This document shows positions 2,685-58,556 of a DNA stretch of 64,000 nt, piece after piece; within the stretch, counting starts at the first letter, position 1, and each line of letters begins with the position of its first letter. Source of the stretch: Amycolatopsis mongoliensis (lineage in GTDB: Bacteria > Actinomycetota > Actinomycetes > Mycobacteriales > Pseudonocardiaceae); contig NZ_CP127295.1 of NCBI RefSeq assembly GCF_030285665.1, positions 8,618,001-8,682,000 on the forward strand. Reading direction: 5' to 3'. Below the pieces are notes generated by a model that saw only the letters and a list, made by a program, of their open reading frames with translations, was not told the origin of the DNA and did not search any database. The translations under genes and the position numbers were made by a program.

Positions 2685-2732
2685 GGGACTTACGTCCCTT
2701 CGCGGACTCACGTCCACAAAGGACGAAGGTCC
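2685..2732. promoter_or_regulatory. Three tandem DosR-like boxes
   Basis: Three 12-base palindromes of the form GGAC-N4-GTCC follow each other at about 18-base spacing: GGACTTACGTCC (2686-2697), GGACTCACGTCC (2704-2715) and GGACGAAGGTCC (2721-2732). Spacing within each matches the core of the mycobacterial DosR site (GGGACTWWAGTCCC). They lie just upstream of the CBS-BON/USP/phosphoketolase operon and overlap the 3' end of the CHAD gene. The palindromes are seen; binding by a DosR-like regulator is inferred. Confidence 0.6.
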
Positions 2733-3805
2733 TTCCGCAGCGCGTGCCAGGCCCCCGGCAGGGCCTCGGCGCAGTGGGCGGCCGCGGCGGCCTCGCCGTC
2801 GTGGACCGGGCCTTCCCGGACGCCCAGCTCGCGCAGGTGCGCCTGGGCGACGACCGCGTCCTGGAACTCGCCGAGCAGGTCCTGGAACTCGTGCAACGCG
2901 ACCTTCGCGCCGGCGGCCTCCAGCGCGTACCGCAGGCGCTTGGCGGCCTTCCGCACGTCGTGGACGGCGCGGTCGCGGTCCGGCCCGGCGGGCAGCGCGG
3001 CCACCCGGGCCACCCGGCCGTCGACCTCCGCGGCCACGACGTGGGCCAGGCGGGGCAGCACCTTCGCGGCGGGACGACGGGCCGCCTTGCCCCACCGGTA
3101 CCGCGGCTCTTCGCTCAGCACCAGTTCGAGCACGTCCAGCGCGTTCAGCAGCTGCACGTAGCGACGGCTGTCGAGCGCGCGCAGCGCCCGGGTTTCGGCT
3201 TCCTCCGCGAGAGCCGCGAAGTAGGCGTCCGAAGGCTCGTCCGCCCACGGGCGCGAGCGCGCCCATTGGACCTCGGTGTCGCGGGCCGGGGCGAGTTCGC
3301 CGCCGAGCCAGCGCAACGCGCCACTGACCTCCCGCAGGAGCTTGCGCCCGCCCAGCACCTTCGCGTACGCGGAGAAAACGCCCCGCAGCCGTCGCGCGGC
3401 CACGCGCATCCGGTGCACGGCGTCGGGCCGGCCCTGCCGGACGGCCAGGTCGGCGGCGGCCAGCGCGGCCAGTTGCGCGCGGACGTACGCCAGGACCACG
3501 GCGCGAGCCGAGCCGTCGGGCGGCCGCGGCGGCGCGGCGATCCGGCTCCCCAGCGCCGCGCGCAGCTCGGCGACGCCACCGCCGTCGAGGTTCGCGACCG
3601 GCACCAGCTCGTCGTCGCGGGTGTAGGCCCGCACCAGCCCGGACAGGGCCGGCGGCACACTGGACTCCGATCCGGAGTGGCACACCGGCCCGTCCGGGGT
3701 GTCGAGCCGCCACCGGCCGGACCGGACGCTCAACGCCAGGCCGTTTCGGAGCAGGCGCAGGCCGTCCGTGTCGAAGAACACGGTGTCCGCGATCGTCGTG
3801 GTCAT
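2708..3805 (-). CDS. CYTH-like/CHAD domain protein
   Basis: A 365-residue protein with a short N-terminal stretch that looks like part of a CYTH barrel (FFDTDGLRLLRNGLALSVR, about 10-28) and a histidine/arginine-rich helical CHAD domain from about 110 to the end (HRMRVAARRLRG, RDTEVQW, HDVRKAAKRLRYALE). CHAD domains bind inorganic polyphosphate. The CYTH part seems incomplete, so triphosphatase activity is doubtful. It is the last gene of the run 8754 to 2708 and overlaps the membrane-protein gene upstream by ATGA. A PPK2 polyphosphate kinase is encoded 6 kb away, so a polyphosphate link is plausible but inferred. Confidence 0.82.
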   Translation of the reverse strand: MTTTIADTVFFDTDGLRLLRNGLALSVRSGRWRLDTPDGPVCHSGSESSVPPALSGLVRAYTRDDELVPVANLDGGGVAELRAALGSRIAAPPRPPDGSARAVVLAYVRAQLAALAAADLAVRQGRPDAVHRMRVAARRLRGVFSAYAKVLGGRKLLREVSGALRWLGGELAPARDTEVQWARSRPWADEPSDAYFAALAEEAETRALRALDSRRYVQLLNALDVLELVLSEEPRYRWGKAARRPAAKVLPRLAHVVAAEVDGRVARVAALPAGPDRDRAVHDVRKAAKRLRYALEAAGAKVALHEFQDLLGEFQDAVVAQAHLRELGVREGPVHDGEAAAAAHCAEALPGAWHALRKDLRPLWT

Positions 3806-4209
3806 GGCTCCGCCAGCCGGTGCCGGGCAAGCAGCGCGAGCCCGAACAGCACGACCACGAGCCCCGCGGTCACCCACTGGACCGGGACGCGCACGCCGAT
3901 CAGCCCGAACTGGATCGCCAGCCAGCCGGTGAGCACCGCGCAGGCGGCCAGCGCGGCACCCGGCGCGCGGAAGTCGGCCCGCCAGGCGAACACCGACGCC
4001 CAGGCCAGCGTCCCGCCGACGACGAGCACGAGCGCGATCCCGGGCAGCACCCAGCTGGTCAGGCCGAGCGGCGCCAGCCACTCCACCGGCATCGTGAACC
4101 CCGGCGCCCCGGCGATCAGCGAGATCCCGCCGTACAGCGCGCTCACGGCGAACAACGTCTCGAACGCGGCCAGCAGGCGCATCGTGGCGCGGGTCCGCAG
4201 GGTGGTCAC
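3802..4209 (-). CDS. Small membrane protein, four predicted TM helices
   Basis: A 135-residue hydrophobic protein with about four membrane segments (around residues 10-30, 45-70, 82-103 and 108-128) and charged loops. I do not recognise a family and assign no function. The GTG start at 4209 overlaps the stop of the USP gene upstream (GTGA) and its own stop overlaps the CHAD start (ATGA), so it is co-translated with both. A longer in-frame reading upstream would run through the USP gene and is rejected. Confidence 0.75.
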   Translation of the reverse strand: MTTLRTRATMRLLAAFETLFAVSALYGGISLIAGAPGFTMPVEWLAPLGLTSWVLPGIALVLVVGGTLAWASVFAWRADFRAPGAALAACAVLTGWLAIQFGLIGVRVPVQWVTAGLVVVLFGLALLARHRLAEP

Positions 4210-5117
4210 GCCCCGCTCCCGGTCCGCTGGGGCCGCACGACCGCCACCGGGCACGGCGAGTGCGCGATCAGCGCCTGGCTCGTCGAGCCGAGCAGCATGC
4301 CGGTGAACCCGCCACGGCCACGGCAGCCGACCACGATCAGCTGGGCGTGCTCGCCGCGTTCCAGCAGCGTCCGCACGGGCCGCCCGCGCGTCACCTCGAT
4401 GTCGATCGCCACGTCCGGGTACTTCACCTGCCAGCCGGAGACCTGCTGGGCGAGCTTGTCCCGTTCCTCCTTCTCGATCTCCGCCGGGTCCTCCTGCATC
4501 GGGTGCGGCCGGAGCATGCCGTCGGCGAGGACGTCGCTCCAGGTGTGCACCGCGACGAGCCCGGTGCCGCGCAGTCGCGCTTCCTCGCAGGCGAACGCCA
4601 GTGCGGCGTCGCTGTCGGGCGAGCCGTCGGCACCGACGACCACCGGCCCGGTGACCGGCGGCGGGTCGTGCGGGGTGCGGCCGCGGACCACGACGATCGG
4701 GCAGTGCGCGTGCGCCGCCACCGAAACGGCGGTGGAGCCGACGAGCAGGCCGGTGAACCCGCCGAGCCCGCGCGAGCCCAGCACGATCAATTCGGCGTGC
4801 CGCGACTCCTGGGTCAGCGCGGTGACCGGGCTCCATTCCCGGGCGGCGGTGGTGATGTCCAGGCCGGGGTGCTCGGCCAGGACCGCGTTCCGCGCCTCGG
4901 CGAGCCAGGCTTCGGCCCGCTCGGCCAGCCCGGCCCGGACCTGTTCCTGGGTGCCGAACGCGACCGGGGCCTTCACCTGCGGCAGGGCGTAGACCTGCAC
5001 CAGGCGCAGCGGGCGGTCGCGGCGGCGGGCCTCGGCGCCGGCCCAGACCGCGGCCGCCACCGCCGAGGACGAGCCGTCGACCCCGGCGACGATCGCGCCC
5101 TCAAGGAAGCCGGGCAT
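4206..5117 (-). CDS. Tandem-domain universal stress protein
   Basis: A 303-residue protein with two USP domains (about 5-148 and 155-298). ATP-binding signatures are GSRGLGGFTGLLVGST in the first domain and [16 protein letters not shown] in the second, both with the G-x2-G-x9-G-(S/T) pattern. Such proteins bind ATP and mark stress or dormancy regulons. The gene overlaps the DUF1918 gene upstream by 17 bases and a small membrane-protein gene downstream by four, in the middle of an eight-gene minus-strand run. Confidence 0.93.
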   Translation of the reverse strand: MPGFLEGAIVAGVDGSSSAVAAAVWAGAEARRRDRPLRLVQVYALPQVKAPVAFGTQEQVRAGLAERAEAWLAEARNAVLAEHPGLDITTAAREWSPVTALTQESRHAELIVLGSRGLGGFTGLLVGSTAVSVAAHAHCPIVVVRGRTPHDPPPVTGPVVVGADGSPDSDAALAFACEEARLRGTGLVAVHTWSDVLADGMLRPHPMQEDPAEIEKEERDKLAQQVSGWQVKYPDVAIDIEVTRGRPVRTLLERGEHAQLIVVGCRGRGGFTGMLLGSTSQALIAHSPCPVAVVRPQRTGSGA

Positions 5118-8754: not shown

Positions 8755-8819
8755 CGGGTCCTCCTGCCGTCGCGGTGTGCTCGCGGCCCAGCATGGCGCG
8801 GCGCGTACTCGCCGGTCAG

Positions 8820-8853
8820 AGCACGAAGTCCCTTTCACCGGGGACCAAATCCG
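8820..8853. promoter_or_regulatory. Weak DosR-like half-sites in divergent promoter
   Basis: The spacer between the divergent genes starting at 8754 and 8890 holds two imperfect elements, CGAAGTCCC (8825-8832 region) and GGGGACCAAATCC (8840-8852). Each keeps one good half (GTCC or GGAC) of the palindrome seen in other spacers of this window, but the partner half is poor or misplaced. Reported with low confidence. Confidence 0.25.
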
Positions 8854-10518: not shown

Positions 10519-10577
10519 ACCCCGACGCTACGAAACCGGCACCCCCGCGGTCTGCGGCCGGACGTCGGCGCGGCCGG

Positions 10578-10589
10578 GGCCTTTGGTCC
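10578..10589. promoter_or_regulatory. DosR-like box between ppk2 and site-2 protease
   Basis: GGCCTTTGGTCC (10578-10589) fits the GG(A/C)C-N4-GTCC palindrome shared by other spacers here. It lies about 60 bases from each of the two divergent starts (10518 and 10648), so it could serve both. Binding is inferred. Confidence 0.5.
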
Positions 10590-10647
10590 TTTCGCCGGAG
10601 GCGCTGCGGCCCTCGCGCGCGCCCGCTCGGGGGAGGACGGTCGGAGG

Positions 10648-14804: not shown

Positions 14805-14922
14805 GGTTTCCTCCCGGCGGGACGGATCGGACGTCCAGCGTCGGACGCTCGCGGCGGCCGGGAAAGAGTCCAAGGGCCTCAACCCCCGGGCCCGTGCGGG
14901 CCCGGAGGGCCCCGCACCCGAA

Positions 14923-14934
14923 GCACTTCGGCCC
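14923..14934. promoter_or_regulatory. DosR-like box upstream of nitroreductase
   Basis: GCACTTCGGCCC (14923-14934) matches the shared palindrome with one change in each half and lies about 60 bases before the nitroreductase start. A further half-site, GAGTCC (14866-14871), lies closer to the divergent DUF2267 gene. Moderate support only. Confidence 0.4.
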
Positions 14935-14992
14935 TGGGGCCCCGCGGCTGCCACGACGAGCATGGGGTGCAGAACGATCCAAGGAGGATGCG

Positions 14993-17637: not shown

Positions 17638-17737
17638 GACGTGTTTCCTCCGGGTTCCGGTGCGCGGACCACGCATCCGGACCGACGGTAGGTCGGGGCC
17701 GCGGCCGGCTGCTGCGGTCGTCGGCCACCGGCACGAA

Positions 17738-17749
17738 GGACTTTCGGCA
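17738..17749. promoter_or_regulatory. DosR-like box in divergent spacer
   Basis: GGACTTTCGGCA (17738-17749), extended GGACTTTCGGCACC, has a perfect left half and a weaker right half of the shared palindrome. It lies between the USP start (17637) and the membrane-protein gene (17824), roughly 75-100 bases from each. Confidence 0.45.
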
Positions 17750-17823
17750 CCCCGCGCGGAGTCCTTGGCCGCTCCCGGGTGGGCGTCCCGCGAGCGCATC
17801 GTGGGCCGGAGGAGGTTCCCGTG

Positions 17824-19297: not shown

Positions 19298-19312
19298 GGG
19301 GACGTTCGCCCC
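19298..19312. promoter_or_regulatory. DosR-like box between adh and ftsH
   Basis: GGGGACGTTCGCCCC (19298-19312) contains GGAC-GTTC-GCCC, near-palindromic with extended G/C arms. It is about 85 bases from the alcohol dehydrogenase start and 70 from ftsH. Confidence 0.5.
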
Positions 19313-19382
19313 TTCTTCCCGGCCCGCCGATCCGCGATCGTGGGCGGGAATGGATCACCCGCGACTCCTGGGAGCGAGCGTC

Positions 19383-22952: not shown

Positions 22953-22989
22953 GGCCCGAGGATGCGGGCCGGGCGTGCGCACCGGCTGC

Positions 22990-23023
22990 GGCCGGAAGTC
23001 CTCCCGGCCGGTGACTTCCGGCC
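22990..23023. promoter_or_regulatory. Pair of inverted DosR-like boxes
   Basis: GGCCGGAAGTCC (22990-23001) and TGACTTCCGGCC (23012-23023, the reverse complement of GGCCGGAAGTCA) stand 22 bases apart, centre to centre, and together make a larger inverted repeat. They lie between the divergent SulP and USP genes. GGCCGGAAGTCA occurs again at 44122-44133. Confidence 0.5.
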
Positions 23024-23082
23024 GCGGCGGGCGGACGGATGACGTGCCTACCGTCGGAGCACAACCGCTTCAGGAGTCGCCG

Positions 23083-24193: not shown

Positions 24194-24295
24194 TCCGGAT
24201 CCGGGGCCCCCGGGCCCCGCGAACCGGGGCGGTCCGGCCCTCGTCGCCAGATCCCGTACGACGGAACCTGGGTTCAGACGAAAGTGAGGCACATC

Positions 24296-30437: not shown

Positions 30438-30445
30438 GACCGGCC

Positions 30446-30955: not shown

Positions 30956-30965
30956 GCCTGCCTCC

Positions 30966-31232: not shown

Positions 31233-31246
31233 GACTACCTCCTCGT

Positions 31247-32875: not shown

Positions 32876-32876
32876 C

Positions 32877-33872: not shown

Positions 33873-33876
33873 GTCA

Positions 33877-35118: not shown

Positions 35119-35698
35119 GAGTCAGTTCCCCCCGTTCCGCACGCACGAACCCGTAGGCCGCGGTGGCCGCGGCGATGTTGCCGTCGGCCTTCGCGCCGCT
35201 GAACCGGCCGGAGATCGCGGTGATCACCGAGCGCAGCTCGACGACGCCGGTCAGGGCGGCGAACCCGCCGAGCAGCGCCGCGTTCGGCATCGGGCGGCCG
35301 AGGTGCTCGAGCGCGAACTCGGTGGCCGGCACCACGAGCAGCTGCTCGCGCCGGAACCCGCGGACGAACTCCCCCAGCCCCAGTTCCTCGAAGCTGTGCG
35401 CGGAGTTCACCAGCAGGTAGCCCTCGGGCTTCAGGCCCTCGAAGACGTTCACCTGGTGCAGCAGGGTGGCGTCCTGGATGATCAGCGCGTCGGGCCGCAC
35501 GATCGGTTCCCGCGTGCGGATCACCCGGTCGGCGATCCGGCAGAAGGAGACGACCGGCGCGCCCGTGCGTTCCGAGCCGAAGCTGGGGAACGCCTGCGCG
35601 TGCCGCCCTTCGGTGAACGCGGCGACCGACAGCAGCTCGGCCGCGGTCACCACGCCTTGGCCGCCGCGGCCGTGGATGCGGACCTCGGTCGTGCTCAT
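35102..35698 (-). CDS. porG: Pyruvate/2-oxoacid:ferredoxin oxidoreductase, gamma subunit
   Basis: A 198-residue gamma subunit with the typical start EVRIHGRGGQGVVTAAELL (about 5-23) and PNAALLGGFAAL (about 137-148). ATG at 35698 overlaps the aldolase stop (ATGA). Order gamma-alpha-beta, then the GltD/ferredoxin fusion, defines one enzyme operon. Confidence 0.9.
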   Translation of the reverse strand: MSTTEVRIHGRGGQGVVTAAELLSVAAFTEGRHAQAFPSFGSERTGAPVVSFCRIADRVIRTREPIVRPDALIIQDATLLHQVNVFEGLKPEGYLLVNSAHSFEELGLGEFVRGFRREQLLVVPATEFALEHLGRPMPNAALLGGFAALTGVVELRSVITAISGRFSGAKADGNIAAATAAYGFVRAERGELTRAQAD

Positions 35699-36588: not shown

Positions 36589-36698
36589 GGCGGCCTCCGG
36601 AATCGCTGGTTCGTGGTGTGCCCAGCACACCGCGCGGCGTCCGCCCCGCGCAGCGGCCGAACGCCACCGATGCCCGAGGCGGGGGGCCGGGACACCGA

Positions 36699-36710
36699 GG
36701 ACCTTGGACC
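36699..36710. promoter_or_regulatory. DosR-like box upstream of aldolase/por operon
   Basis: GGACCTTGGACC (36699-36710) is a near-perfect match to the shared palindrome (one change in the right half), about 110 bases upstream of the aldolase start and 62 before the gerW start. Confidence 0.5.
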
Positions 36711-36772
36711 CTTGCGACGACGGCCCCGTCGGCGGCCAGACTTGCCGGGGGGAACTCACCCGGGAGGTCGTC

Positions 36773-44039: not shown

Positions 44040-44121
44040 TCTCTCGTCCCGAAGTCCAGGCGGACGGCCGTCATCCGGCGACCGTGATCCCAGCCAAGCT
44101 CGCGGACGTGGTCGCGGCTAT

Positions 44122-44193
44122 GGCCGGAAGTCACCGTTGCCCAGGACCTCGGCCACCCGTGATCGTCCGGCACCCGAAGCGGGCCGAAGGTCC
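44122..44193. promoter_or_regulatory. Three DosR-like boxes before the arginine deiminase operon
   Basis: GGCCGGAAGTCA (44122-44133), GGACCTCGGCCA (44144-44155) and GGCCGAAGGTCC (44182-44193). The last is a full match to GG(A/C)C-N4-GTCC, 58 bases before the next start. They lie between the USP gene (start 44039) and the gene at 44252. Confidence 0.55.
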
Positions 44194-44251
44194 CGCCGCG
44201 GCGGGACGGACGACTCTAGGCCCGCTCCGGCGCCCGCCGGAAACTCCCGGC

Positions 44252-44722
44252 ATGCAGACCCACGAGATCCAGCTGCACAACCGGAACGAGCAGCCCACCG
44301 CCGTCGTGGAAGCGACCCTGCCGGTCGCGCAGATCGGGCCTTGGCTCAGCGGGCAGTACGGCACCGTCGCCAAAACCCTGGCCGCCCACGGGCAGGCACC
44401 GATCGGACCCCCGTTCGCGCGCTACCACCCGGTCGCCGAAGGCCGGTTCCGCGTCGAAGCGGGGTTCCCGGTCGCCACCGCCATCGAAGCCGCCGACGGC
44501 GTCCGTCCGTCGACGCTGCCGGGCGGCCCGGTCGCCGCGACAGTCCACATCGGACCGTACGACGCGATGGAGTCCGCCTACGGTGCGCTCGCTTCGTGGG
44601 TGCACGAGCACGACGGCGAACTCGCCGGGGACGCCTGGGAGGTCTACCTGACTTCCCCGGCGGAGCACCCCGATCCGAGCACCTGGCGCACCGAGGTCGT
44701 GCAGCCCTACCGGATCCACTGA
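44252..44722 (+). CDS. GyrI-like small-molecule-binding domain protein
   Basis: A 156-residue single-domain protein of the GyrI-like/effector-binding fold (as in AraC-type C-terminal domains): [13 protein letters not shown] (about 20-32), GPPFARYHP (about 52-60), [17 protein letters not shown] (about 96-112), EVYLTSP (about 129-135). No DNA-binding part. It may bind a ligand or dye-like molecule. It lies 56 bases before the arginine permease, perhaps the first gene of that operon. Confidence 0.85.
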
Positions 44723-44778
44723 ACCACAGCCAGCCGCCGTCGACGTCCGGCACGGACCGACCGGCAGATCGGACGACG

Positions 44779-46221
44779 ATGGCAGTACAGGAGCACGCCG
44801 AGCACGCGGAAGACGCCCCCTCGGGCGGCCCGGACCCGGCTCGCGGCAAGGAGTTCACCCACCGGTTCGGCCTGCCGACCGCGACGGCGCTGGTGGTGGG
44901 GTCGGTCATCGGCACGGGCGTGTTCGCCCTGCCGTCGTCACTGGCCCCCTATGGCATGTCGAGCCTGCTGGCCTTCGTGCTGGTCACGCTCGGCGCACTG
45001 GCCTTGGCGCTGGTGTTCGGGTGGCTCAACAAACGAGTGCCGGGCTCGGGCGGGCCCTACTTGTACGCCCGGGACGCCTTCGGCGACTTCGGCGGTTTCG
45101 TCACCGCGTGGTCGTACTGGCTGACCGCCTGGGTCGGCAACGCCGGCATCGCGGTCGCGTGGGTCGGCTACGTCGAAGTGTTCGTCAACAAGAGCCACAA
45201 CCCGTGGTGGTCGATCGTCATCGCCCTGGTCGGGCTGTGGCTGCCGGCCGCCGTGAACATCTCCGGGATCCGCAACCTCGCGTGGTTCCAGCTCGTCACC
45301 ACGGTCCTCAAGTTCGTGCCGCTGGTGTTCATGGCCACGATCGGGCTGTTCTTCGTCAAGACGAGCAATCTCGGTTCGTTCAACCCCAGCGGGCTGTCCT
45401 GGCTCGGTGCCCTCTCCGCGGCAGCCGCGATCGCGCTGTTCAGCTACATCGGCCTCGAGACCGCCTCGGTCGCCGCCGGACGCGTCCGCGACCCGCAGCG
45501 CAACGTGTCCCGGGCGACCGTGCTCGGCACCCTGGTCTGTGCCCTGGTGTACATCCTGGGGACCGTCACGGTGTTCGGCACGGTCGGCCGCCAGACGCTG
45601 GTGGACTCCACCTCGCCGTTCTCCGATTCCGCCACCGCCATCTTCGGGGCGAGCTGGGCCGGGCAGGCCATGGCCGTGGTGGCGATCGTGTCCGGCCTCG
45701 GCTGCCTGAACGGCTGGACGCTGATCTGCGCCGAGATGCCGATGGCCGCGGCCCGCGACCGGCTGTTCCCGACCCAGTTCGCCAAGCTGAGCAAGAAGGA
45801 GATCCCGGTGTTCGGCATCGTGGCCGCCACCGTGCTGGCGTCGGTGCTCACCGCGTTCGGCTACTGGAGCTTCGAGGCCGTGTTCACCAACGTGGTGCTG
45901 CTCGGCGTGTTCACCGCGGTGATCCCCTACCTGTACTCCGCCGCAGCGCACCTCTACTGGCTCATCGTCCAGGGCCGCGCGCTGAACTGGCCCCACCTGG
46001 TCCGCGACCTGGTCGTGACCGCCTTCGCGCTGGTCTTCACCTTCTGGGCCCTGGCCGGCAGCGGGTACCAGGCCGTGTACTACGGCGTGTTCGTGTTCTT
46101 CCTCGGCATCCCGGTCTACGTCTGGATGAAGTCCCAGCGCAAGGAATATGGCGAAACACCCGTCCCGCCCATCCGCTACCCCGCCGACAGCCCGTACTTC
46201 CTGCCCCCGGAGCAGCCATGA
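44779..46221 (+). CDS. arcD: APC-family amino acid antiporter, probably arginine/ornithine
   Basis: A 480-residue permease with 12 predicted TM helices and the APC start [17 protein letters not shown] (about 40-56). Similar to basic amino acid antiporters (ArcD/AdiC/YjeH type). Followed directly by arginine deiminase (ATGA overlap), so an arginine:ornithine exchange is the natural role, though this family is not the classical ArcD family; the assignment rests on context. Confidence 0.8.
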
Positions 46222-47438
46222 CCTTCGCCGTGCATTCGGAGGTCGGCCGGCTGAACCAGGCCATCGTGCACCGGCCGGGGCTCGAGCTGACCCGGCTCAC
46301 CCCGCGCAACATCGGCGAACTGCTCTTCGACGACGTCCTGTGGGCCAAGCAGGCGAAGCAGGAGCACGACGCGTTCGCCGAAGCCCTGCGGGACAAGGGC
46401 GTCCGCGTGCACTACTACGGCCGGCTGCTGGCCGAAACACTCGCGCTGCCCGAGGGCCGGGCCTTCGTGCTGGACCGGGTGTGCACGCCCGAGATCCTCG
46501 GGCCCGCGCTGGTCGCGCCGCTGCGCGCGCTGTTCGACGACCTCGACGGCGACAGCCTCGCCGAGTACCTGGTGGGCGGCGTGCTCAAGGCCGACCTCCG
46601 GCCGCTGCGCACGCACAGCCTGCGGTGGGAAACCCTCGCCGCCGACGACTTCGTGCTCCCGCCCCTGCCGAACCACCTGTTCCAGCGCGACGACTCCTGC
46701 TGGGTGTACGGCGGGGTGTCGGTCAACCCGATGGCGAAGCCCGCGCGACAGCGGGAATCACTGCACACCCGGGCCATCTACCGCCACCACCCGATGTTCG
46801 CCGGCGCCGGGTTCCTCACCTACTACGGTGACGACGACGTCAGCCACCAGCCGGCCACCATCGAAGGCGGCGACGTGCACGTCCTCGGCGACGGCGCCGT
46901 CCTCATCGGCATGGGCGAGCGCACCACGCCCATGGCCGTGGAGATCCTCTCCCGGGCGTTGTTCTCGACCGGCCAGGCCCACACCGTCGTCGCCGTGGAG
47001 CTCCCGCGCTCCCACGCGACGATGCACCTGGACACGGTGATGAGCATGGTCGACCGCGCCACCTTCGTCGTCTACCCCTACTTCGACCGCAGCGCCCGCA
47101 GCTGGACCGTCACCGCCGGCGAAGAACCCGGCACCCTGCGCGTGCACGCGAACCGCGACCTGTGGCACACCCTCGCCGAACTCCTGAAGGTCCCCGAGGT
47201 CACGGTGCTCAGCACCGACGAGGACATCCGGGCCGCCGAGCGCGAGCAGTGGGACGACGGCACGAACTACCTCGCCGTCGCCCCGGGGGTCGTCCTCGGC
47301 TACGAGCGCAACGTCGCCACCAACACCATGCTGCGCAAGCACGGCATCGAAGTCGTGACCATCGCCGGCAGCGAACTGGGCCGCGGCCGCGGCGGCCCGC
47401 GCTGCATGACCTGCCCGATCGACCGCGACCCGAGCTGA
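46218..47438 (+). CDS. arcA: Arginine deiminase
   Basis: A 406-residue enzyme turning arginine into citrulline and ammonia. Visible: N-terminal [13 protein letters not shown], substrate-binding FQRDDS (about 154-159), [11 protein letters not shown] (about 215-225), catalytic-type [11 protein letters not shown] (about 272-282) and the C-terminal GGPRCMTCP with nucleophile Cys396. Normal length for ADI. First catalytic step of the pathway encoded by the next two genes. Confidence 0.95.
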
Positions 47439-47449
47439 ACGGATCCGAC

Positions 47450-48451
47450 ATGGCCTTCAACCTGCGCAACCGCAGCTACCTGACCGAACTGGACTTCACC
47501 CGGGAAGAACTCGTCTTCCTGCTCGACCTGTCGGCCCAGCTCAAGTCCGCCGCCTACGCCGGGATCACGCGCGACCGGCTGGCCGGCAAGCACCTGGCGC
47601 TCATCTTCGAGAAGTCCTCCACCCGGACCCGGTGCGCGTTCGAGGTCGCCACGGCCGAAGAAGGCGCCACCACGACCTACCTCGGCCCCCAGGACACCCA
47701 CCTGGGGCACAAGGAATCCGCCCGCGACACCGCCCGCGTGCTCGGCCGGATGTACGACGGGATCGAGTACCGCGGCCACGCCCAGCGCACCGTCGAACAG
47801 CTCGCGCAGTTCGCCGGCGTGCCCGTCTACAACGGACTCACCGACACCTGTCACCCGACCCAGTCGCTGTGCGACGTCTTCACCATGCGCGAGCACAGCA
47901 CCAAACCCCTGCCGGACATCGCGTTCTGCTATCTCGGCGACACGCGCAACAATGTCGCGAGCTCCCTGCTCGCGATGGGCGCCAAGCTGGGCATGGACGT
48001 CCGGCTGGCCGGCCCGCGCGCGCTCTGGCCGGCCGAGGAGCACCTGGCGGCCTGCCTGCGCGAGGGTGCGGCCAGTGGCGCCCGGATCACCGTCACCGAC
48101 AACGTCGACGAGGCCGTCGCGGGCGCGGACTTCCTCTACACCGACGTCTGGGTGTCCATGGGCGAGGCCGCCGGGACCTGGCACGAGCGGGTCGAACTGC
48201 TCGCGCCCTACCAGGTCACGGCGAAGACGATGAAGGCCACCGGCAATCCCGGCGTCCGGTTCCTGCACTGCCTGCCCGCCCTGCACGACCGCGACACCGA
48301 GGTCGGCGCCGAAGCCTTCCGCGAATTCGGTCTCGACGGCGTCGAGGTCACCGACGAGGTCTTCGAATCCCCGGCTTCGCTGGTGTTCGAGCAGGCGGAG
48401 AACCGGATGCACACCATCAAGGCGATCCTCGTCGCGACCCTGGGCAGCTGA
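47450..48451 (+). CDS. arcB: Ornithine carbamoyltransferase (catabolic context)
   Basis: A 333-residue OTC. Carbamoyl-phosphate motif SSTRTR (about 56-61), HPTQSLCD (about 137-144), and ornithine-site HCLPALHD (about 274-281). It interconverts citrulline plus phosphate with ornithine and carbamoyl phosphate. Placement between arginine deiminase and carbamate kinase argues for the catabolic direction. Eleven bases separate it from arcA. Confidence 0.95.
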
Positions 48452-48454
48452 GCC

Positions 48455-49411
48455 GTGCGGATCCTGGTCGCCCTGGGCGGCAACGCCCTGCTGCGCCGCG
48501 GCGAACGCCCGGACGCGGACCTGCAGCAGGTGAACGTGGTCGCCGCCGCCGAGGCGATCGCCGAGCTCACCACCGAACACGAAGTCGTGCTCACCCACGG
48601 CAACGGCCCCCAGGTCGGCATGCTCGCCCTCGAAAGCGCCGCAGACCCCGCCCTGACCCGCCCGTACCCCCTCGACGTCCTCGGCGCGCAGACCCAGGGC
48701 ATGATCGGCTACCTGCTCGGCCAAGCCCTGCAGAACGTCGTGCCCGGCCGGCCGGTCGCCACCCTGATGACGCAGACGCTCGTCTCCGTCGCCGATCCCG
48801 CGTTCGCCGCCCCCACCAAGTTCGTCGGCCCCGTCTACCCGCAAGAACGAGCCGCCGCACTCGCCGCCGAACGCGGCTGGGCCGTGCGCCGGGACGGCCC
48901 CAACTGGCGCCGGGTGGTCCCGTCACCCCGCCCGCAGCGCGTCGTGGAAACCCGGGTGATCCGCACCCTCGTCGAGTCCGGGGCGATCGTGGTCTGCGCC
49001 GGCGGCGGCGGTGTCCCGGTCGTGCGCGACGAACACACCGGCCGGCTGCGCGGCGTCGAAGCCGTCGTCGACAAGGACCAGACGGCGGCCCTGCTCGCCG
49101 AAGCCCTCGACGCCGATGCCCTGCTGCTGCTCACCGACGTGCCGGCGGTCGTCGACCACTACGGCACCCCGCAAGCCGCCGCCATCCGCGAAACCACCCC
49201 CGCGCAACTACGAGCCCGGCAGTTCCCGGCCGGCTCGATGGGCCCCAAGGTCGACGCGGCGTGCCGCTTCGTCGAACTCACCGGCAACGTCGCCGCCATC
49301 GGCTCGCTCGGCTCCCCCGCCGCGATGCTGCGCGGCACCGAGGGCACGGTCATCCGGCCCGGCGCGAAGGCCGCCCATCCCCGCCCCGAAGTTACCTTGT
49401 CCCCTAGCTGA
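48455..49411 (+). CDS. arcC: Carbamate kinase
   Basis: A 318-residue carbamate kinase (ILVALGGNALLRRGE at the start, THGNGPQVGML, about 47-57, and the C-terminal GSMGPKVDAACRF, about 254-266). It transfers phosphate from carbamoyl phosphate to ADP, making ATP without oxygen. The GTG start lies three bases after the arcB stop. Completes the arginine deiminase pathway. Confidence 0.95.
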   Translation: MRILVALGGNALLRRGERPDADLQQVNVVAAAEAIAELTTEHEVVLTHGNGPQVGMLALESAADPALTRPYPLDVLGAQTQGMIGYLLGQALQNVVPGRPVATLMTQTLVSVADPAFAAPTKFVGPVYPQERAAALAAERGWAVRRDGPNWRRVVPSPRPQRVVETRVIRTLVESGAIVVCAGGGGVPVVRDEHTGRLRGVEAVVDKDQTAALLAEALDADALLLLTDVPAVVDHYGTPQAAAIRETTPAQLRARQFPAGSMGPKVDAACRFVELTGNVAAIGSLGSPAAMLRGTEGTVIRPGAKAAHPRPEVTLSPS

Positions 49412-50884: not shown

Positions 50885-51433
50885 TCACACCTCGAACGCG
50901 TTTCCGGAAGGCGCGAGGGCCCCCGGTCGAGAGCCTTTCGCCCCGGGCCGGTGCCGGATTCCCGGCACGCCCCAGCCACGGAGCACCTCGCACGCGGTGC
51001 CGAGCACGTCCGGCAGGCGGTCGCGGGCCACCGGGCCGAGCCCGAACCGGCACACGGGCGCCTCGGTCACCAGCCCGGCGAGCGCGAGGTGCCGTGGTGC
51101 GCGGCCCATCAGCTCCACCGCGGACAACGCGTCCACGAGCCCCACGTCGTGGGCGGTGGCGCGCATTCCGTGGCCCCGGCGGATCTCGGCGTCCCGCAGG
51201 AGCACGATCGAGCCCGGCGGGCCGTGGCGCTCCGACACGGCGTCGAGCACGAGCACCGCGGCGCGGTCCGCCAGCAGCGGGGTCAGCAGGAGTCCCAGCG
51301 TGCTGCCGTCCAGCACCTCCACGCCGGGCGGGAGCAGCGGCGCCAGCCTGCGGGCGGCGACCACGCCCACGCCGTCGTCGCCGAGCAGTTCGTTGCCGAT
51401 GCCCAGCACGAGCACCGGGGCGGGGGCCGTCAT
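50885..51433 (-). CDS. hyaD: [NiFe]-hydrogenase maturation protease
   Basis: A 182-residue HyaD/HybD-type endopeptidase that removes the C-terminal tail of the large subunit after Ni insertion. Nickel-sensing residues appear in GNELLGDDGVG (Glu/Asp, about 13-23), DAVSE (about 64-68) and THDVG-like TAHDVG (about 93-98). Four-base overlap with the cytochrome gene. Its natural substrate is the 15-residue tail of the large subunit encoded upstream. Confidence 0.9.
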   Translation of the reverse strand: MTAPAPVLVLGIGNELLGDDGVGVVAARRLAPLLPPGVEVLDGSTLGLLLTPLLADRAAVLVLDAVSERHGPPGSIVLLRDAEIRRGHGMRATAHDVGLVDALSAVELMGRAPRHLALAGLVTEAPVCRFGLGPVARDRLPDVLGTACEVLRGWGVPGIRHRPGAKGSRPGALAPSGNAFEV

Positions 51434-52113
51434 CTGCGGTCACCGGGCAGGAACTTGTAGCCGGAGAAGATCGACGTCATCAGGCCGGAGCCCTCGACGC
51501 GGTCGACCAGCAGCCCGCTGTAGAGGTGGTGGACCATGAAGCCCCAGGTGAGCCACATGATCAGGTGGTGGGTGAACCGGATCGTCGACAGCGCGAACAG
51601 CGGGGTGAGCCAGCCGGTGAGGAACGCGGCCCAGCCGTTGCCCTCCACGCCCCACAGCACGACCCCGGTCACGATCTCCACGCCGAACATCAGGTACAGC
51701 ACCGTGTACGTCATCCCGGCGAGCGGGTTGTGCCCGACCACCGGCGGGGCGTCGCGTTCGAGGAAGGTGTAGAAGCGCACCGACGGGATGATCTGGCGGA
51801 AGCGCTCGCGGGTGGTCGGGATCCACTCCGTCCAGCGCGACCACCGGTTGGGGGACAGGAACATCCACGCCACCCGGGCGAGGATCAGGGCGATGAAGCC
51901 GTACGCCGCGAACTTGTGGACGATCTTCACCCAGGCGACCCACCCCGCACTCGCGGGCAGGGCCAGGATCGGGTTTCCGATGAGGTAGCCGGTCACGCTC
52001 AGCACGGCCAGCGCGAGCACCAGCAGCCAGTGGATGACCCGGACCGGCAGGTCCCAGACCCGGACCCGGACCAGCGCCGGTTCCGGGGCGGTTTCCCGCG
52101 CCGAGGCCGTCAT
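51430..52113 (-). CDS. hyaC: Ni/Fe-hydrogenase b-type cytochrome
   Basis: A 227-residue membrane cytochrome b with four or five TM helices and haem-ligand histidines in RVIHWLLVL (His about 28), KIVHKFAAYG (about 65) and RFTHHLIMWL / MVHHLYSG (about 180-200). It anchors the hydrogenase and passes H2 electrons to quinone. ATG overlaps the large subunit stop. Confidence 0.92.
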   Translation of the reverse strand: MTASARETAPEPALVRVRVWDLPVRVIHWLLVLALAVLSVTGYLIGNPILALPASAGWVAWVKIVHKFAAYGFIALILARVAWMFLSPNRWSRWTEWIPTTRERFRQIIPSVRFYTFLERDAPPVVGHNPLAGMTYTVLYLMFGVEIVTGVVLWGVEGNGWAAFLTGWLTPLFALSTIRFTHHLIMWLTWGFMVHHLYSGLLVDRVEGSGLMTSIFSGYKFLPGDRR

Positions 52114-53819
52114 TGCACGAGCACCTTCGCCACGGCTTCGCCGTCGGCGTCGTAGACGTGCGCCGCGCACGCCATGCACGGGTCGAACGAGTGCAGCGTG
52201 CGCAGGATCTCCAGCGGCCGGGCCGGATCGGCCACCGGGGTGCCGACCAGGGACGCCTCGTACGGACCCGGGTTGCCCCGGTCGTCGCGCGGGCTCGCGT
52301 TCCAGGTGCTGGGCACGACGGCCTGGTAGTTGCGGATGCGCCCGTCCTCGATGACCACCCAGTGCGAGAGCGAACCCCTTGGTGCCTCGTGGAAGCCGAC
52401 ACCGAAGGACTTTCCGTCGGGCCAGGAAGCCGGGTCCCACTTGGTGTTGTCGGCGATCGTCAGGTCGCCGCCGGCGATGTTGTCGCGCAGCCGGTTCACC
52501 AGCTCCAGCGAATACCGGGCCATCAGCTGGGTCTCCAGACCGCGGGCCAGCACCCGCCCGAGCGTCGACATCAGCGCCGACGCGGGCAGCTTCAGCCGGT
52601 CCAGGGCGCCTTGGACGAGCGGCTTGATGCGGGCGTCACCGGCGGTGTAGCCGACGAGCATGCGCGCGAGCGGGCCGACCTCCATCGCCCGCCCGTCGTA
52701 GCGCGGGGCCTTGAGCCACGAGTACTTGCCTGCGACGTCGAGCTGGTCGAACGGGGGCTGCGGGCCGGTGTAGTCCGGCGTGGTGCTGCCCTGCCACGGC
52801 GGGAGGGAGGCCTTCGCGTCGTCGTAGCGGTACCAGGAGTGGAACGCGGACTCGGAGACCTTGTCCCGGACGAACGGCTCGGGTTTCCCGTCCACCAGCA
52901 CGCCGCCGGGGAACAGGCCGCCCTGCGGTGGCTGTCCCTTGGCCGGCGCCGACGGCGTGTAGTCGCCGAAGACGAGGTACGAACCGATCCCCCGCCCGTA
53001 GGTGGTCCACTCGGGGTAGGCCTGGGCGATCGCGTAGAGGTCGGGCAGGTAGACCTGCTCGATGAAGTCGACGCCCCGCTGCACGAGCTGGGCGAGCTGC
53101 TGCAGCGTGTTGTCGTTGATCGCGTCCTGGCTCGCCGGGTCGACCGGCGAGGCCATCCCGCCGACGAGGTAGGTCTGCGGGTGCGGGTTCTTGCCGCCGA
53201 GCAACGCGTGGATGCGGACGTAGTCGCGCTGGAACTCCAGCGCGTCGAGGTAGTGGCTGAAGGCGAGCAGGTCGACCTCCGGCGGGAGGCGGTAGGCCGG
53301 GTGCCCCCAGTAGCCGTTGGTGAAGGGCCCGATGTTCCCACTGGCGAGGAATCCCTTGAGCCGGTCGCGCACCGACGCGAACAGCGCGGTCGTCGCCCGC
53401 GGGTAGTCCGAAAGGGACTGCGCGACCGAAGCGGTCTTGGCGGGATCGGCCCGCAACGCTGCGGTGGGGTCGATCCAGTCCAGCGCGTGCAGGTGGTAGA
53501 AGTGCACGACGTGGTCGTGCAGGAACTGCGCCGCCGCGATGAGCTGGCGCAGCAGGCGCGCGTTCGGCGGGGGCACGGCCCCGACCGCGTCCTCGACCGC
53601 GCGCACCGAAGCCAGCGCGTGCACGGTGGTGCAGACCCCGCAGATGCGTTGCGCGAACAGCCACGCGTCGCGCGGGTCACGCCCGGCGAGGATGGTCTCG
53701 ATGCCGCGCCACATGGTCGAAGACGAGTAGGCGTCCTTGACGACTCCGCCGTCCACCGTGACTTCGACGCGCAGATGTCCCTCGATCCGGGTGACGGGGT
53801 CGATGACCAGCCGGGCCAT
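52110..53819 (-). CDS. hyaB: [NiFe]-hydrogenase large subunit
   Basis: A 569-residue catalytic subunit. Nickel ligands: RICGVCTTVH (58-67; Cys60, Cys63) and DPCMACAAH (546-554; Cys548, Cys551). A 15-residue tail after His554 is the expected maturation peptide. N-terminal DPVTRIEGHLRVEV is the family hallmark. No selenocysteine position. It oxidises H2 at the membrane, feeding the cytochrome b. Two bases separate it from the small subunit gene. Confidence 0.95.
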   Translation of the reverse strand: MARLVIDPVTRIEGHLRVEVTVDGGVVKDAYSSSTMWRGIETILAGRDPRDAWLFAQRICGVCTTVHALASVRAVEDAVGAVPPPNARLLRQLIAAAQFLHDHVVHFYHLHALDWIDPTAALRADPAKTASVAQSLSDYPRATTALFASVRDRLKGFLASGNIGPFTNGYWGHPAYRLPPEVDLLAFSHYLDALEFQRDYVRIHALLGGKNPHPQTYLVGGMASPVDPASQDAINDNTLQQLAQLVQRGVDFIEQVYLPDLYAIAQAYPEWTTYGRGIGSYLVFGDYTPSAPAKGQPPQGGLFPGGVLVDGKPEPFVRDKVSESAFHSWYRYDDAKASLPPWQGSTTPDYTGPQPPFDQLDVAGKYSWLKAPRYDGRAMEVGPLARMLVGYTAGDARIKPLVQGALDRLKLPASALMSTLGRVLARGLETQLMARYSLELVNRLRDNIAGGDLTIADNTKWDPASWPDGKSFGVGFHEAPRGSLSHWVVIEDGRIRNYQAVVPSTWNASPRDDRGNPGPYEASLVGTPVADPARPLEILRTLHSFDPCMACAAHVYDADGEAVAKVLVQ

Positions 53820-53822
53820 GGG

Positions 53823-54986
53823 TCACCCGTCCTCTCGGTCGGCGGGCTCGGGTTCCGGGGTCTTCCGCGCCTCCCGGATCGCGAGGAGCTTGTGCTGGAC
53901 GACCTTGCCGACGCCGTGCAGCGCGAACCCGGCGGCGGTCGCACCGACGACGGTCAGGCCGATCTCGTCGACCGTGAAGTCGCCGCCGACCGCCTGGACG
54001 TCCGGGAGCCGCTCGTAGAACGGCGTCATCGCGTCCCAGAAGCCCGGCTCCGAACAGCCGACGCAGCCGTGGCCGGCGGCGATCGGCCACGACGTGCCGT
54101 CGTTGTAGCGCACGCTCGGGCAGTTGTGGAACGTGCTCGGGCCCTTGCAGCCCAGCTTGTAGAGGCACCAGCCCTTCCGGTGCCCTTCGTCGCCCCACTC
54201 CTCGGCGAACTGCCCGGCGTCGAAGTGCCCGCGGCGGGGACAGGTGTCGTGGATGCGCTCCCCGTAGGCGAACAGCGGCCGGCCCAGGTCGTCCGCGGCC
54301 GGGAACTCGCCGAACGTCAGGTAGTGCACGATCGTGGCGGTCAGGTTGTCGGCGTTCACCGGGCACCCCGACAGGTTGATCACCGGGACCCCGCTGACGA
54401 CGTCTTCCACCCGCACCGCACCGGTCGGGTTCGGCCCGGCGGCCGGGATCCCGCCGAACGCCGAGCAGGTGCCCACGTTGATGACGCCCGCCGCGCCGCG
54501 CACGGCGCTGCGCAGCAGGTCCTCGGCCGAGCGGCCGCCGATCGTGCAGGCGCCGGGGATGCCGGTGGGCACCGACCCTTCGACGACGACCAGGTGCCCG
54601 CCCCGGGCGACCGCGTCGTCGCGCGCCTTCTCGGCCGCGGTGCCGGCCGCCGCCATCAGGGTCTCGTGGTAGTTCAGCGAGATCATCCCGAGGAGGAGAT
54701 CCGCGGTCGAGGGGTTGCGCGAGCGCAGGAACGCCTCGGTGTCGCCCGCGCAGTCCTGGAACTCGAGCCACACCACCACCGGTCGTTCCACAGTGGACAA
54801 CGCTTCGGCGACCCGGGGCGCGAACCGCTCCGGCAGCGCCAGCGTCGTCGCCATCGCCGCGCAGAACGTCAGGAACCGGCGCCGCCCGATCCCCGCTTCG
54901 GCCAGACGCGCCGGCAGCGGGCGGTGGTCGGCGGCGGCCGGCACGCCGGGCCCGGGTTGGGTGCTTTCGCTGCGGCCGGGAGTCAT
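53823..54986 (-). CDS. hyaA: [NiFe]-hydrogenase small subunit with Tat signal
   Basis: A 387-residue Fe-S subunit. Twin-arginine signal GRRRFLTFCAAM (about 34-45). The proximal cluster motif reads QDCAGDTEA (77-85), C-x-x-D where most group 1 enzymes have C-x-x-C; a 3Cys-1Asp proximal cluster is known from the actinobacterial-type hydrogenase of Ralstonia. Distal/medial motifs include HDTCPRRGHFDAGQF, GPSTFHNCP and GCVGCSEPGFWD. A C-terminal hydrophobic helix (about 340-362) anchors it. ATG 54986 follows GGAGGTGGCG; an in-frame GTG at 55046 would put the start almost on the DosR-like box. Confidence 0.92.
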   Translation of the reverse strand: MTPGRSESTQPGPGVPAAADHRPLPARLAEAGIGRRRFLTFCAAMATTLALPERFAPRVAEALSTVERPVVVWLEFQDCAGDTEAFLRSRNPSTADLLLGMISLNYHETLMAAAGTAAEKARDDAVARGGHLVVVEGSVPTGIPGACTIGGRSAEDLLRSAVRGAAGVINVGTCSAFGGIPAAGPNPTGAVRVEDVVSGVPVINLSGCPVNADNLTATIVHYLTFGEFPAADDLGRPLFAYGERIHDTCPRRGHFDAGQFAEEWGDEGHRKGWCLYKLGCKGPSTFHNCPSVRYNDGTSWPIAAGHGCVGCSEPGFWDAMTPFYERLPDVQAVGGDFTVDEIGLTVVGATAAGFALHGVGKVVQHKLLAIREARKTPEPEPADREDG

Positions 54987-55064
54987 CGCCACCTCCGCCA
55001 AGCCGCCGGCGCCGGTGTCCTGGCGGCGCGCTCGATGGTGCTTCACGACCTCGGCGGCGGCTAG

Positions 55065-55076
55065 GGCCTAAAGTCA
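55065..55076. promoter_or_regulatory. DosR-like box upstream of hydrogenase operon
   Basis: GGCCTAAAGTCA (55065-55076), extended AGGGCCTAAAGTCACC, matches the box with TAAA centre close to the mycobacterial TWWA. It lies about 80 bases upstream of the small-subunit ATG and 40 before the divergent HybE-like gene. Confidence 0.5.
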
Positions 55077-55114
55077 CCTTGCCCCCGGCGCACCAGCGGG
55101 GTCACACTCGGGCC

Positions 55115-55507: not shown

Positions 55508-55529
55508 TGGTCCTCCGGCCCGCTTCCCG

Positions 55530-55541
55530 AGACCTTGTGCC
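55530..55541. promoter_or_regulatory. DosR-like element before nitroreductase
   Basis: AGACCTTGTGCC (55530-55541), GAGACCTTGTGCCC extended, shares the CTTGTGCC end with the element at 58545. It is 67 bases before the ATG at 55608. The left half is imperfect. Confidence 0.35.
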
Positions 55542-55607
55542 CTAGTGACCACCGCCGCGCGGGCGTGGAATCGACCCGCGGGGGAGAGTTCGCGGAGGAG
55601 GGCAGAA

Positions 55608-57531: not shown

Positions 57532-57540
57532 ACACCGGGA

Positions 57541-58359
57541 TCACGCCGCGCCGGGCGGGTCTTCGGCGAAGGTCAGGATGTTCGTGATGACCTCGCCGAA
57601 CCGCGCCGGCTGGGCCAGCAGCCAGGTGTGGCCGCCGGGCACGGTCACCGTCCGCGGGTCGCCCAGGCTGGTGCGCAGCGAGCGCAGCGTGGCCTCCGGG
57701 ATCACGTTGTCCTGCTTGCTCCACACGACGACCACCGGCAGCCGGCGCCGGTTCAGCTCCGCCAGCTCCGATGTCAGGTCGGCGGTCCGGGCCAGGTGCG
57801 CGACCCGCCAGATGGCGCCCGGGGCCCGCAGCACGTTCGGCACGAGGTCGCGCAGCACCACCGGCAGCACGCGGGTGGCCTGCCGGGTCGGCAGCAGATC
57901 GACCTGCAGGTGCAGGCCCCAGTCCCACAGCGGCCGCTCGGCGAGCGCCTTGAGCGCGCCGCGCCCGTCCGTCCACGCCGAACCGCCGATCGAGTTGACC
58001 AGGATCAGCCGGCGCACCAGTTCGGGCGAGTCGTGGGCGGTCCGGATGGCCACCCCGCCACCGAAGGAGTACCCGACCAGCGTCACCGGCTCGGTCAGTT
58101 CGAGGCCTGCCACGAACGCGGCGACCCAGCGCGCGTAACCGTGCAGGCTGTGTTCGGTACGGGGAAGTTCCGCGGTCCCGCCGAAGCCGGGCAACGCGGG
58201 TGCGTACACCCGCAGCCCGGCGGCCGTGAGCGCCTCGAGCGCCTTCCCGAACGCCCGGTCCGCGATGCCCCAGCCGTGCAGGAACAGCACCGGCGGTCCG
58301 TCACCGCCCACCCCGTAGTGCGCGGAGCGCCCGGCCACGAGAGTGGTGCGCCAGCGCAT
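57541..58359 (-). CDS. Alpha/beta hydrolase
   Basis: A 272-residue alpha/beta-hydrolase. Oxyanion-loop LFLHGWG (about 23-29), nucleophile elbow GYSFGG (about 101-106; Ser103), acid in WSKQDNVI (about 213-220) and His in GGHTWL (about 243-248). Substrate unknown. ATG 58359 (MRWRTTL) is favoured; further upstream the frame is open but enters the regulatory region. Confidence 0.82.
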   Translation of the reverse strand: MRWRTTLVAGRSAHYGVGGDGPPVLFLHGWGIADRAFGKALEALTAAGLRVYAPALPGFGGTAELPRTEHSLHGYARWVAAFVAGLELTEPVTLVGYSFGGGVAIRTAHDSPELVRRLILVNSIGGSAWTDGRGALKALAERPLWDWGLHLQVDLLPTRQATRVLPVVLRDLVPNVLRAPGAIWRVAHLARTADLTSELAELNRRRLPVVVVWSKQDNVIPEATLRSLRTSLGDPRTVTVPGGHTWLLAQPARFGEVITNILTFAEDPPGAA

Positions 58360-58473
58360 TCCCGAATTGCTCTTCCCCACGCTGACCAGCCCCGTTCCGC
58401 AGTCCCGGTGATCCACCCCCACCGTGCTCCCCCGCCCGGCCCGCACCGCAGGGGACAACCGCTTCCGGGGCCG

Positions 58474-58556
58474 GTCCGAAGGTCCTCGATCCGCCCGACG
58501 AAGGTCCCCCGCGCGAGGCCCCGCGGGGGACCGTCCGGCGCGAAGGACTTTGTGCC
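58474..58556. promoter_or_regulatory. Cluster of DosR-like elements
   Basis: GTCCGAAGGTCC (58474-58485), CGACGAAGGTCC (58496-58507) and GGACTTTGTGCC (58545-58556) lie in the 279-base spacer between the divergent hydrolase and phosphoribosyltransferase genes. The first two share GAAGGTCC with 2725-2732 and 44186-44193, at 22-base spacing. The third is about 85 bases before the phosphoribosyltransferase ATG. Confidence 0.5.

Follow-up and report, generated by a model that had tools for sequence, protein, structure and literature searches.

A probable enlarged DosR-type regulon with predicted DosR boxes in Amycolatopsis mongoliensis

Genes for USP, HSP20 and nitroreductase are hallmark targets of the DosR regulon. 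In M. smegmatis, clusters close to the two copies of devR/devS are reported to encode a NiFe hydrogenase, a P-type ATPase and a PEP synthase that are induced by hypoxia, and an alpha-ketoglutarate:ferredoxin oxidoreductase is named in the same paper (PMC2799521). In S. coelicolor, the core regulon of OsdR, the DosR orthologue, is described as surrounding its own gene (PMC5069765). It is also reported that DosR binds closely packed sites cooperatively (PMC3029386). Here we describe a comparable region in Amycolatopsis mongoliensis. The window, which is the whole stretch of 64,000 nucleotides that was analysed, covers bases 8618001-8682000 of the 10.8-Mb single-contig genome (G000) and has a G+C content of 73%. 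An earlier, sequence-only reading of the window had noticed palindromes of the form GG(A/C)C-N4-G(T/N)CC between genes and interpreted them as the sites of an expanded DosR regulon.

These palindromes are very probably DosR (DevR/OsdR) boxes, and the region that holds them is very probably the DosR regulon of an Amycolatopsis. The boxes stand at a narrow range of distances from start codons, recur in related species and are often paired in a fixed register, and the genes of the regulator and its sensor lie in the same region. The earlier interpretation is therefore upheld: the full motif is not equally dense everywhere but is concentrated upstream of genes here compared with a 400-kb background sample, and the genome does have a DosR-family regulator.

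Matrix scans and placement of the boxes

The palindromes named in the sequence-only reading are present at the positions given there or within a few bases of them. Since the bare pattern is at the chance level, evidence independent of that reader was used instead. A symmetric matrix was built from 26 S. coelicolor OsdR sites (Table 1 of PMC5069765), with no data from the window, and was used with a main score cut-off of >=8. Genes were called by our own codon-usage script over a region of 160 kb (window positions -58000 to +102000; 161 genes), and 20 stretches of 20 kb, a 400-kb sample of the genome, served as background.

In the 160-kb region, palindromic boxes matching the known consensus stand upstream of genes. 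There are 22 intergenic sites in 15.7 kb, while the background has 16 in 42.5 kb of intergenic and 51 in 357 kb of coding DNA. Five of the 16 intergenic background matches sit in a single stretch, L093, which is part of a second Dos island (see below). With L093 left out, the zone 30-150 bp upstream of starts, picked after the first site list was known, holds 22 sites in 6.9 kb in the region and four in 16.0 kb in the background (Fisher 1.2e-8). The remaining intergenic DNA of the region has no match in 8.8 kb. None of 300 column-permuted matrices reaches 22 sites (mean 1.5, highest 21).

All 22 boxes are found 21-133 bp from the nearest start (median 73.5). The distance of 60-110 bases proposed before holds for 15 of them; the rest fall outside it. 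A box scoring >=8 is present in 13 of 28 divergent spacers of the region vs. one of 55 in the background. That most divergent spacers carry a box is true of the window at a lower score only: seven of its 11 divergent spacers score >=6, but only five score >=8. The boxes do lie between genes in general, except that sites 2704 and 2721 overlap the 3' end of a CHAD gene (2708-3805), and the spacer holding them is co-directional, not divergent.

The same palindrome was recovered de novo. A palindrome-constrained run returned [AG]GGG[AC]C[CG][TA][AT][GC]G[TG]CCC[TC] with a log-likelihood ratio of 120 (24-34 in eight shuffles), and an unconstrained run from random seeds converged on it with a ratio of 173 (74-86 in three background samples). 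Note that these controls had fewer seeds (80 vs. 150 and 120). A second matrix, trained on the boxes of relatives (relatives-trained), marks at >=7 25 of the 28 divergent spacers of the region and 16 of the 55 in the background. Because it separates divergent spacers less well, the OsdR matrix was used for the main counts. As a separate observation, a near-perfect OsdR box (score 19.3) is found at 3764515-3764530 of the genome (L099), 112 bp ahead of a gene located at a great distance from the region.

In a window of 73% G+C, GC-rich palindromes are expected, and a reader could have picked the intergenic ones by chance. Counts of the bare pattern agree with this. The proposed enrichment of GGMC-N4-GKCC (GGMCNNNNGKCC) over shuffled controls did not hold (22 in the window vs. 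26.5 +/- 6.0 expected), and a looser DosR core, GGGACNWWNGTCCC, with two mismatches allowed, is near chance as well (14 vs. 11.6 +/- 3.3 in shuffles). Genome-wide, GGGMCNNNNGKCCC is rarer than its backwards-read control (172 vs. 481), and strict GGGACNNNNGTCCC is commoner (18 vs. 4). Counting of the bare pattern was dropped as uninformative. Two sites, 2704 and 26013, also fail. Chance is nevertheless a highly improbable explanation in view of the independent matrix, the permuted-matrix and background controls, the de novo recovery, the conservation and the 22-bp register described below. It is refuted for the box set as a whole and still applies to single weak sites.

Register, conservation and the regulator

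Closely packed tandem boxes are present in the region. Among 28 box pairs lying 10-60 bp apart (centre to centre), seven are at exactly 22 bp and 14 at 20-24 bp. None of five background pairs is at 22 bp, and permuted matrices give at most four pairs at any one distance. The survey was extended to 80 dosR loci (stretches L012-L091), in which 22 bp is the top spacing for Mycobacteriaceae (28 of 111 pairs, with 14 at 21 and nine at 23 bp) and for Nocardia (16 of 56). In eight other loci the peak is not clear (3/15). The boxes of relatives are orthologous, and cross-species spacing counts are therefore non-independent. In our view the 22-bp register points, independently of the other evidence, to DosR sites. 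If the predictions hold, it would also make functional DosR promoters easy to look for in several groups of actinobacteria.

As inverted repeats with a 4-base loop, the sites could instead form RNA hairpins or terminators and not be bound by a protein. This is close to negligible as an explanation: most of the main sites are in divergent spacers, where terminators are not needed, a terminator scan of 10400-24500 found one vs. 2.0 expected and not at a box, and the 22-bp register fits a protein.

For conservation, genes of the region were matched by reciprocal best hits with stretches in five further Amycolatopsis genomes (G003, G034, G037, G040, and G047). In 11 of 12 aligned upstream regions, one or more boxes have a counterpart in one or more of the relatives, sometimes with altered letters; for the twelfth, that of the PRTase gene, no orthologue is found in the stretches of the five relatives. 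The dosR box is identical in A. mongoliensis, G040, G047, G003, and G037. Ten of the 11 main sites of the sequence-only reading are borne out, and six of them (2686, 2721, 10578, 19300, 44182, and 55065) have OsdR scores of 7.7-13.4, each with a counterpart in at least one relative. Site 2704 was rejected (OsdR score -2.3, not conserved), as was site 26013, which fails in matrix scoring. The boxes at 8818, 14865, 24226, and 44202 were absent from that reading. The predicted boxes of the window are as follows (scores are those of the OsdR matrix unless stated; ADI, arginine deiminase; OTC, ornithine carbamoyltransferase).

2684..2699: DosR box GGGGACTTACGTCCCT, upstream of the CBS-USP-phosphoketolase operon, 85 bp from the start, score 13.3; kept in G040, G047, G037, and the second island
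2719..2734: DosR box AAGGACGAAGGTCCTT, overlapping the CHAD gene 3' end, score 10.5; kept in G040, G047, and G037
8818..8833: weak box AGAGCACGAAGTCCCT, between USP (-) and an unknown gene (+), own score 3.0; the G037 orthologue scores 8.2 at equal distance
10576..10591: DosR box GGGGCCTTTGGTCCTT, between PPK2 (-) and M50 protease with CBS (+), score 8.9; kept with letter changes in G047 and G037
14865..14880: box AGAGTCCAAGGGCCTC; kept in G047 and, with changes, G037
14920..14935: box GAAGCACTTCGGCCCT, between a DUF2267/ATPase operon (-) and nitroreductase (+); kept in G047 and, with changes, G037
17736..17751: DosR box AAGGACTTTCGGCACC, between a USP/CBS-BON operon (-) and a 115-aa gene (+), score 8.4; identical in G047
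19298..19313: DosR box GGGGACGTTCGCCCCT, between zinc ADH (-) and FtsH (+), score 13.4; the forms in G037 and G047 score 15.5 and 13.4
22988..23025: tandem pair GCGGCCGGAAGTCCTC and GGTGACTTCCGGCCGC, 22 bp apart, between SulP (-) and USP (+), weak scores 4.4 and 3.6; the exact 22-bp pair is kept in four of four aligned species (own, G047, G003, and G037)
24226..24241: OsdR-like box GGGGCGGTCCGGCCCT, upstream of a gene pair ending in CorA (+), score 13.6 and relatives-trained only 3.4; kept in G047 and G037, which counts less because its flanks are conserved too
36697..36712: DosR box GAGGACCTTGGACCCT, between the DeoC aldolase/2-oxoacid:ferredoxin oxidoreductase operon (-) and a Spore_YtfJ-like gene (+), score 4.3 and relatives-trained 13.9; a palindrome with changed letters is at the same aligned position in G047 and G037
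44120..44135: box ATGGCCGGAAGTCACC, weak score (4.3); kept in G047, the sole relative whose spacer aligns
44180..44217: tandem pair CGGGCCGAAGGTCCCG and CGGGACGGACGACTCT, 22 bp apart, between USP (-) and GyrI-permease-ADI-OTC genes (+)
55063..55078: DosR box AGGGCCTAAAGTCACC, between NiFe hydrogenase (-) and HybE (+), score 7.7
55528..55543: possible box CGAGACCTTGTGCCCT, relatives-trained score 9.5, OsdR score 2.0
58543..58558: possible box AAGGACTTTGTGCCAT, upstream of the PRTase gene (58639), the only place within the 58474-58556 cluster with a good relatives-trained score

The region is rich in genes of the expected kinds. A Pfam domain scan covered 70 of the 161 called genes. Stress or low-oxygen genes are abundant (USP, CBS, HSP20, nitroreductase, PPK2, M50 protease, and FtsH), and 17 of the 30 USP domain matches of the genome fall within the 160 kb. 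The hallmark targets USP, HSP20 and nitroreductase are all present; we take the nitroreductase to be of the Acg type and the M50 protease to be Rip-like. Energy genes are those for phosphoketolase, DeoC aldolase with 2-oxoacid:ferredoxin oxidoreductase, ADI with OTC, and NiFe hydrogenase, together with cytochrome bd and an ABC protein of the CydDC type. The genes and operons next to the boxes include the following.

1..2607, minus strand: CBS-USP-phosphoketolase operon, with the CBS protein at 1996-2607 and USP at 1094-1999
From window position 1097 down to 1263 bases left of the window, minus strand: phosphoketolase XFP of the same operon
14993-16003: nitroreductase, with box 14920-14935 upstream
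26722..36588, minus strand: run of DeoC aldolase, PFOR-like alpha and TPP subunits, FAD/Fe-S oxidoreductase, GCS2, cation P-type ATPase, and smaller genes
44252..49411, plus strand: GyrI-like, amino-acid permease, ADI, OTC, and one more gene
50885..54986, minus strand: NiFe hydrogenase small and large subunit genes, then two genes
8562944-8563234 of the genome, ~55 kb left of the window: HSP20 gene, with a DosR box pair 22 bp apart upstream

Two further observations concern the window itself. A 759-aa protein at 12092-14371 (minus strand) is a P-type ATPase with a hemerythrin domain fused at the C-terminus, and 1.7 kb at 37627-39375, between a MarR-like gene and a doubtful open reading frame, has no confident gene call.

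As a prediction from sequence, the hydrogenase, ADI, phosphoketolase, and ferredoxin oxidoreductase operons would be targets of DosR. The proposal of an expanded regulon gains from relatives in this respect, as boxes recur at the orthologue of the phosphoketolase operon and at ADI and hydrogenase operons lying elsewhere in their genomes. At the phosphoketolase operon the box recurs with the same gene order. The NiFe hydrogenase of the region is found at E <= 1e-100 in two of 60 genus genomes, the own genome included. In G037 the hydrogenase (1.16 Mb) and the dosR copies (3.05 and 3.51 Mb) are apart, and a changed form of the hydrogenase box (score 4.5) again stands at offset -84. A box is also found 129 bp upstream of the ADI operon in G037, and a weak one 85 bp upstream of that in G034.

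The regulator and its sensor kinase are encoded to the left of the window.

11337-10699 bases left of the window: DosR, 212 aa, best PDB match M. tuberculosis DosR 3c3w
14265-12499 bases left of the window: DosS, with two GAF stretches, HisKA_3 and HATPase_c

DosR aligns with 3c3w over 209 residues (E 1e-94) and keeps Asp54, Thr82, and the stretch KTVKNYVSRLL, which is presumably the recognition helix. The DosR proteins of A. kentuckyensis and A. vancoresmycina are 96% identical to it, and the A. rifamycinica protein 95%. DosS keeps the haem His and the distal Tyr of DosS/DosT, residues that were compared in 11 of 12 loci (L159 left out) and whose roles have been described for His149 and Tyr171 (PMC4082495). 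A second DosR (DosR2), 69% identical, is at 780540 of the genome in the second Dos island (~748000-785000; L127, L093, and L128), which also has USP and DosR-like boxes. The OsdR matrix finds seven sites >=8 in 4.2 kb of upstream zone there. The DosS-like kinase of this island keeps its N-box, and a box pair 22 bp apart is found at 784148/784170.

The genome has 108 GerE matches, and a different NarL/LuxR-type regulator that recognises this half-site could be the owner of the boxes; the paralogues at 2195219 and 7479073 (55% identical) are examples, and DosR2 could be the main owner instead. Such paralogues are 55-69% identical to DosR, and DosR2 carries the same KTVKNYVSRLL stretch, so that it may share sites with the first DosR. 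A different owner of the boxes is unlikely, since dosR sits inside the region, genus-wide motif density goes with the presence of DosR, and the listed sites are concentrated around dosR. DosR is present at E <= 1e-80 in 48 of 60 genus genomes. In a comparison that ignores kinship, the density of the 16-bp motif is 3.4 times higher where DosR is present (86 in 460 Mb) than in the 12 genomes that lack it (6 in 109 Mb; P 0.002); the backwards control shows no difference between the two groups (P 0.69). Of 92 forward sites 75 were listed, and 70 of these, including two of the own region, were used for proximity (five in DosR-less genomes were left out); 25 of the 70 are within 60 kb of a dosR vs. 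1.7 expected.

Several observations weigh against DosR as the owner of this box set. The bare pattern is not enriched in the window or the genome, and the exact 16-mer is found in the own genome four times forward vs. six as control (it is too rare in a single genome and therefore useful only across genomes). Inside the region, 27 matches at >=8 lie in the 144 kb of coding DNA. The two matrices disagree at 24226, 25775, and 36697; the dosR/cytochrome-bd box has an OsdR score of only 5.4, and the OsdR and Amycolatopsis consensus differ. The de novo run on the smaller second island returned a different motif. A clear 22-bp peak is lacking in seven Amycolatopsis loci (2/14), five other Pseudonocardiales (1/12) and four Streptosporangiales (3/27, with 21 bp on top), and G034 has none of four pairs at 22 bp. 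G034 also shares few genes of the region and little of the box set. The dosR box is absent before the DosR genes of G034 and of the second island, and box 2684 is not kept in G003. Finally, with two DosR paralogues, either could be the acting regulator.

By analogy with published work on mycobacteria and Streptomyces, phosphorylation, binding, and hypoxic induction by DosR would proceed as follows. When oxygen falls, haem-GAF sensor kinases of the DosS/DosT type would lose haem-bound oxygen and phosphorylate DosR at Asp54. DosR dimers would bind the 16-bp boxes, often as pairs 22 bp or about two helical turns apart and mostly 60-110 bp upstream of starts, and activate both arms of divergent promoters. 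The stress targets would be USP and CBS proteins, HSP20, nitroreductase, and PPK2. The energy targets would be cytochrome bd and, for anaerobic or substrate-level metabolism, phosphoketolase, 2-oxoacid:ferredoxin oxidoreductase, ADI, and NiFe hydrogenase. The outputs would be stress protection plus ATP production or electron disposal without oxygen.

A DosS-like sensor with a probably decayed kinase domain

Another sensor gene is found between the dosR locus and the window.

4721-3081 bases left of the window (L007:13279-14919), minus strand: DosS-like sensor with no Pfam HATPase_c

Its paralogue, 66% identical, is at 748723-750360 of the genome. At E <= 1e-120 the sensor is found in 14 of 60 genus genomes, all of which have DosR, and nine of these genomes have a copy no more than ~1 kb from a dosR. 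Among the best 120 of 6653 homologues, with domain status taken from Pfam annotation, 63 are without and 57 with a HATPase domain. The haem His and the distal Tyr are each kept in 62 of the 63, the phosphoacceptor His in 53 and the N-box Asn in none, while all four residues are kept in 57 of the 57. In nine comparisons with the decayed sensor, GAF-A has an identity of 0.74-0.95 and the CA domain one of 0.30-0.75; three HATPase-bearing relatives have a CA identity of 0.65-0.86 among themselves.

Judged by these residues, the protein seems to have stayed an oxygen sensor and lost its kinase activity, and as a finding it may be more novel than the regulon. It is conceivable, though on the doubtful side, that the dormancy switch of Amycolatopsis has been rebuilt: the regulon would have taken in operons for fermentation, arginine, and hydrogen, and DosR would be tuned by a DosS paralogue acting as an oxygen-gated phosphate sink or heterodimer partner, whose haem pocket is intact, whose phosphoacceptor His is usually kept and whose ATP-binding domain no longer works. 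The decayed sensor would be a test case for a catalytically dead sensor shaping a two-component response. A literature search at the level of titles and abstract openings, covering few subscription papers, found neither a DosS pseudokinase nor a regulon of this kind in Amycolatopsis.

Comparison with known systems

The expanded regulon is less new than the sequence-only reading implied, since some of its targets have a published precedent in hypoxia. Like Amycolatopsis, M. smegmatis has two devR/devS copies, and its hypoxia-induced clusters msmeg_3926-3955 and 5241-5246 likewise hold genes for NiFe hydrogenase, P-type ATPase, and PEP synthase; unlike in Amycolatopsis, phosphoketolase and arginine deiminase are absent from the passages of that paper on DosR, DevR, and the dormancy regulon (PMC2799521). 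In M. tuberculosis, arcA (arginine deiminase) is reported to be up in one dormancy model and is not ascribed to DosR in that part of the report (PMC8044303). For the M. avium DosR regulon, a search for terms in the available text finds no hydrogenase, arginine or phosphoketolase, and ferredoxin only in the references (PMC11876180).

The OsdR/OsdK regulon of S. coelicolor is alike in its box consensus, AGGGCCGATCGGCCCT, and many of its boxes are given as 47-158 bp upstream (PMC5069765). Its predicted members in the same source likewise include USP, nitroreductase, pyruvate phosphate dikinase, and zinc dehydrogenase genes. It differs at position 5 of the box, where A and C are about equally frequent in Amycolatopsis, and the terms hydrogenase, arginine deiminase, phosphoketolase, ferredoxin, cytochrome bd and cydA do not appear in the main text of the OsdR paper.

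If the predictions hold, a DosR switch known mostly from mycobacteria runs a broad anaerobic-survival programme in a genus of soil actinomycetes, with testable new targets. With the mycobacterial DosR/DevR regulon, as far as it is covered in the sources cited, Amycolatopsis shares Asp54 and Thr82 of DosR, the haem-GAF sensor and packed boxes of the kind bound cooperatively there (PMC3029386, PMC4973870, PMC4082495). It is unlike that regulon in the predicted phosphoketolase, arginine-deiminase, and cytochrome-bd operons and in the decayed DosS paralogue. The region is a well-supported, enlarged case of the known DosR/OsdR type of regulon.

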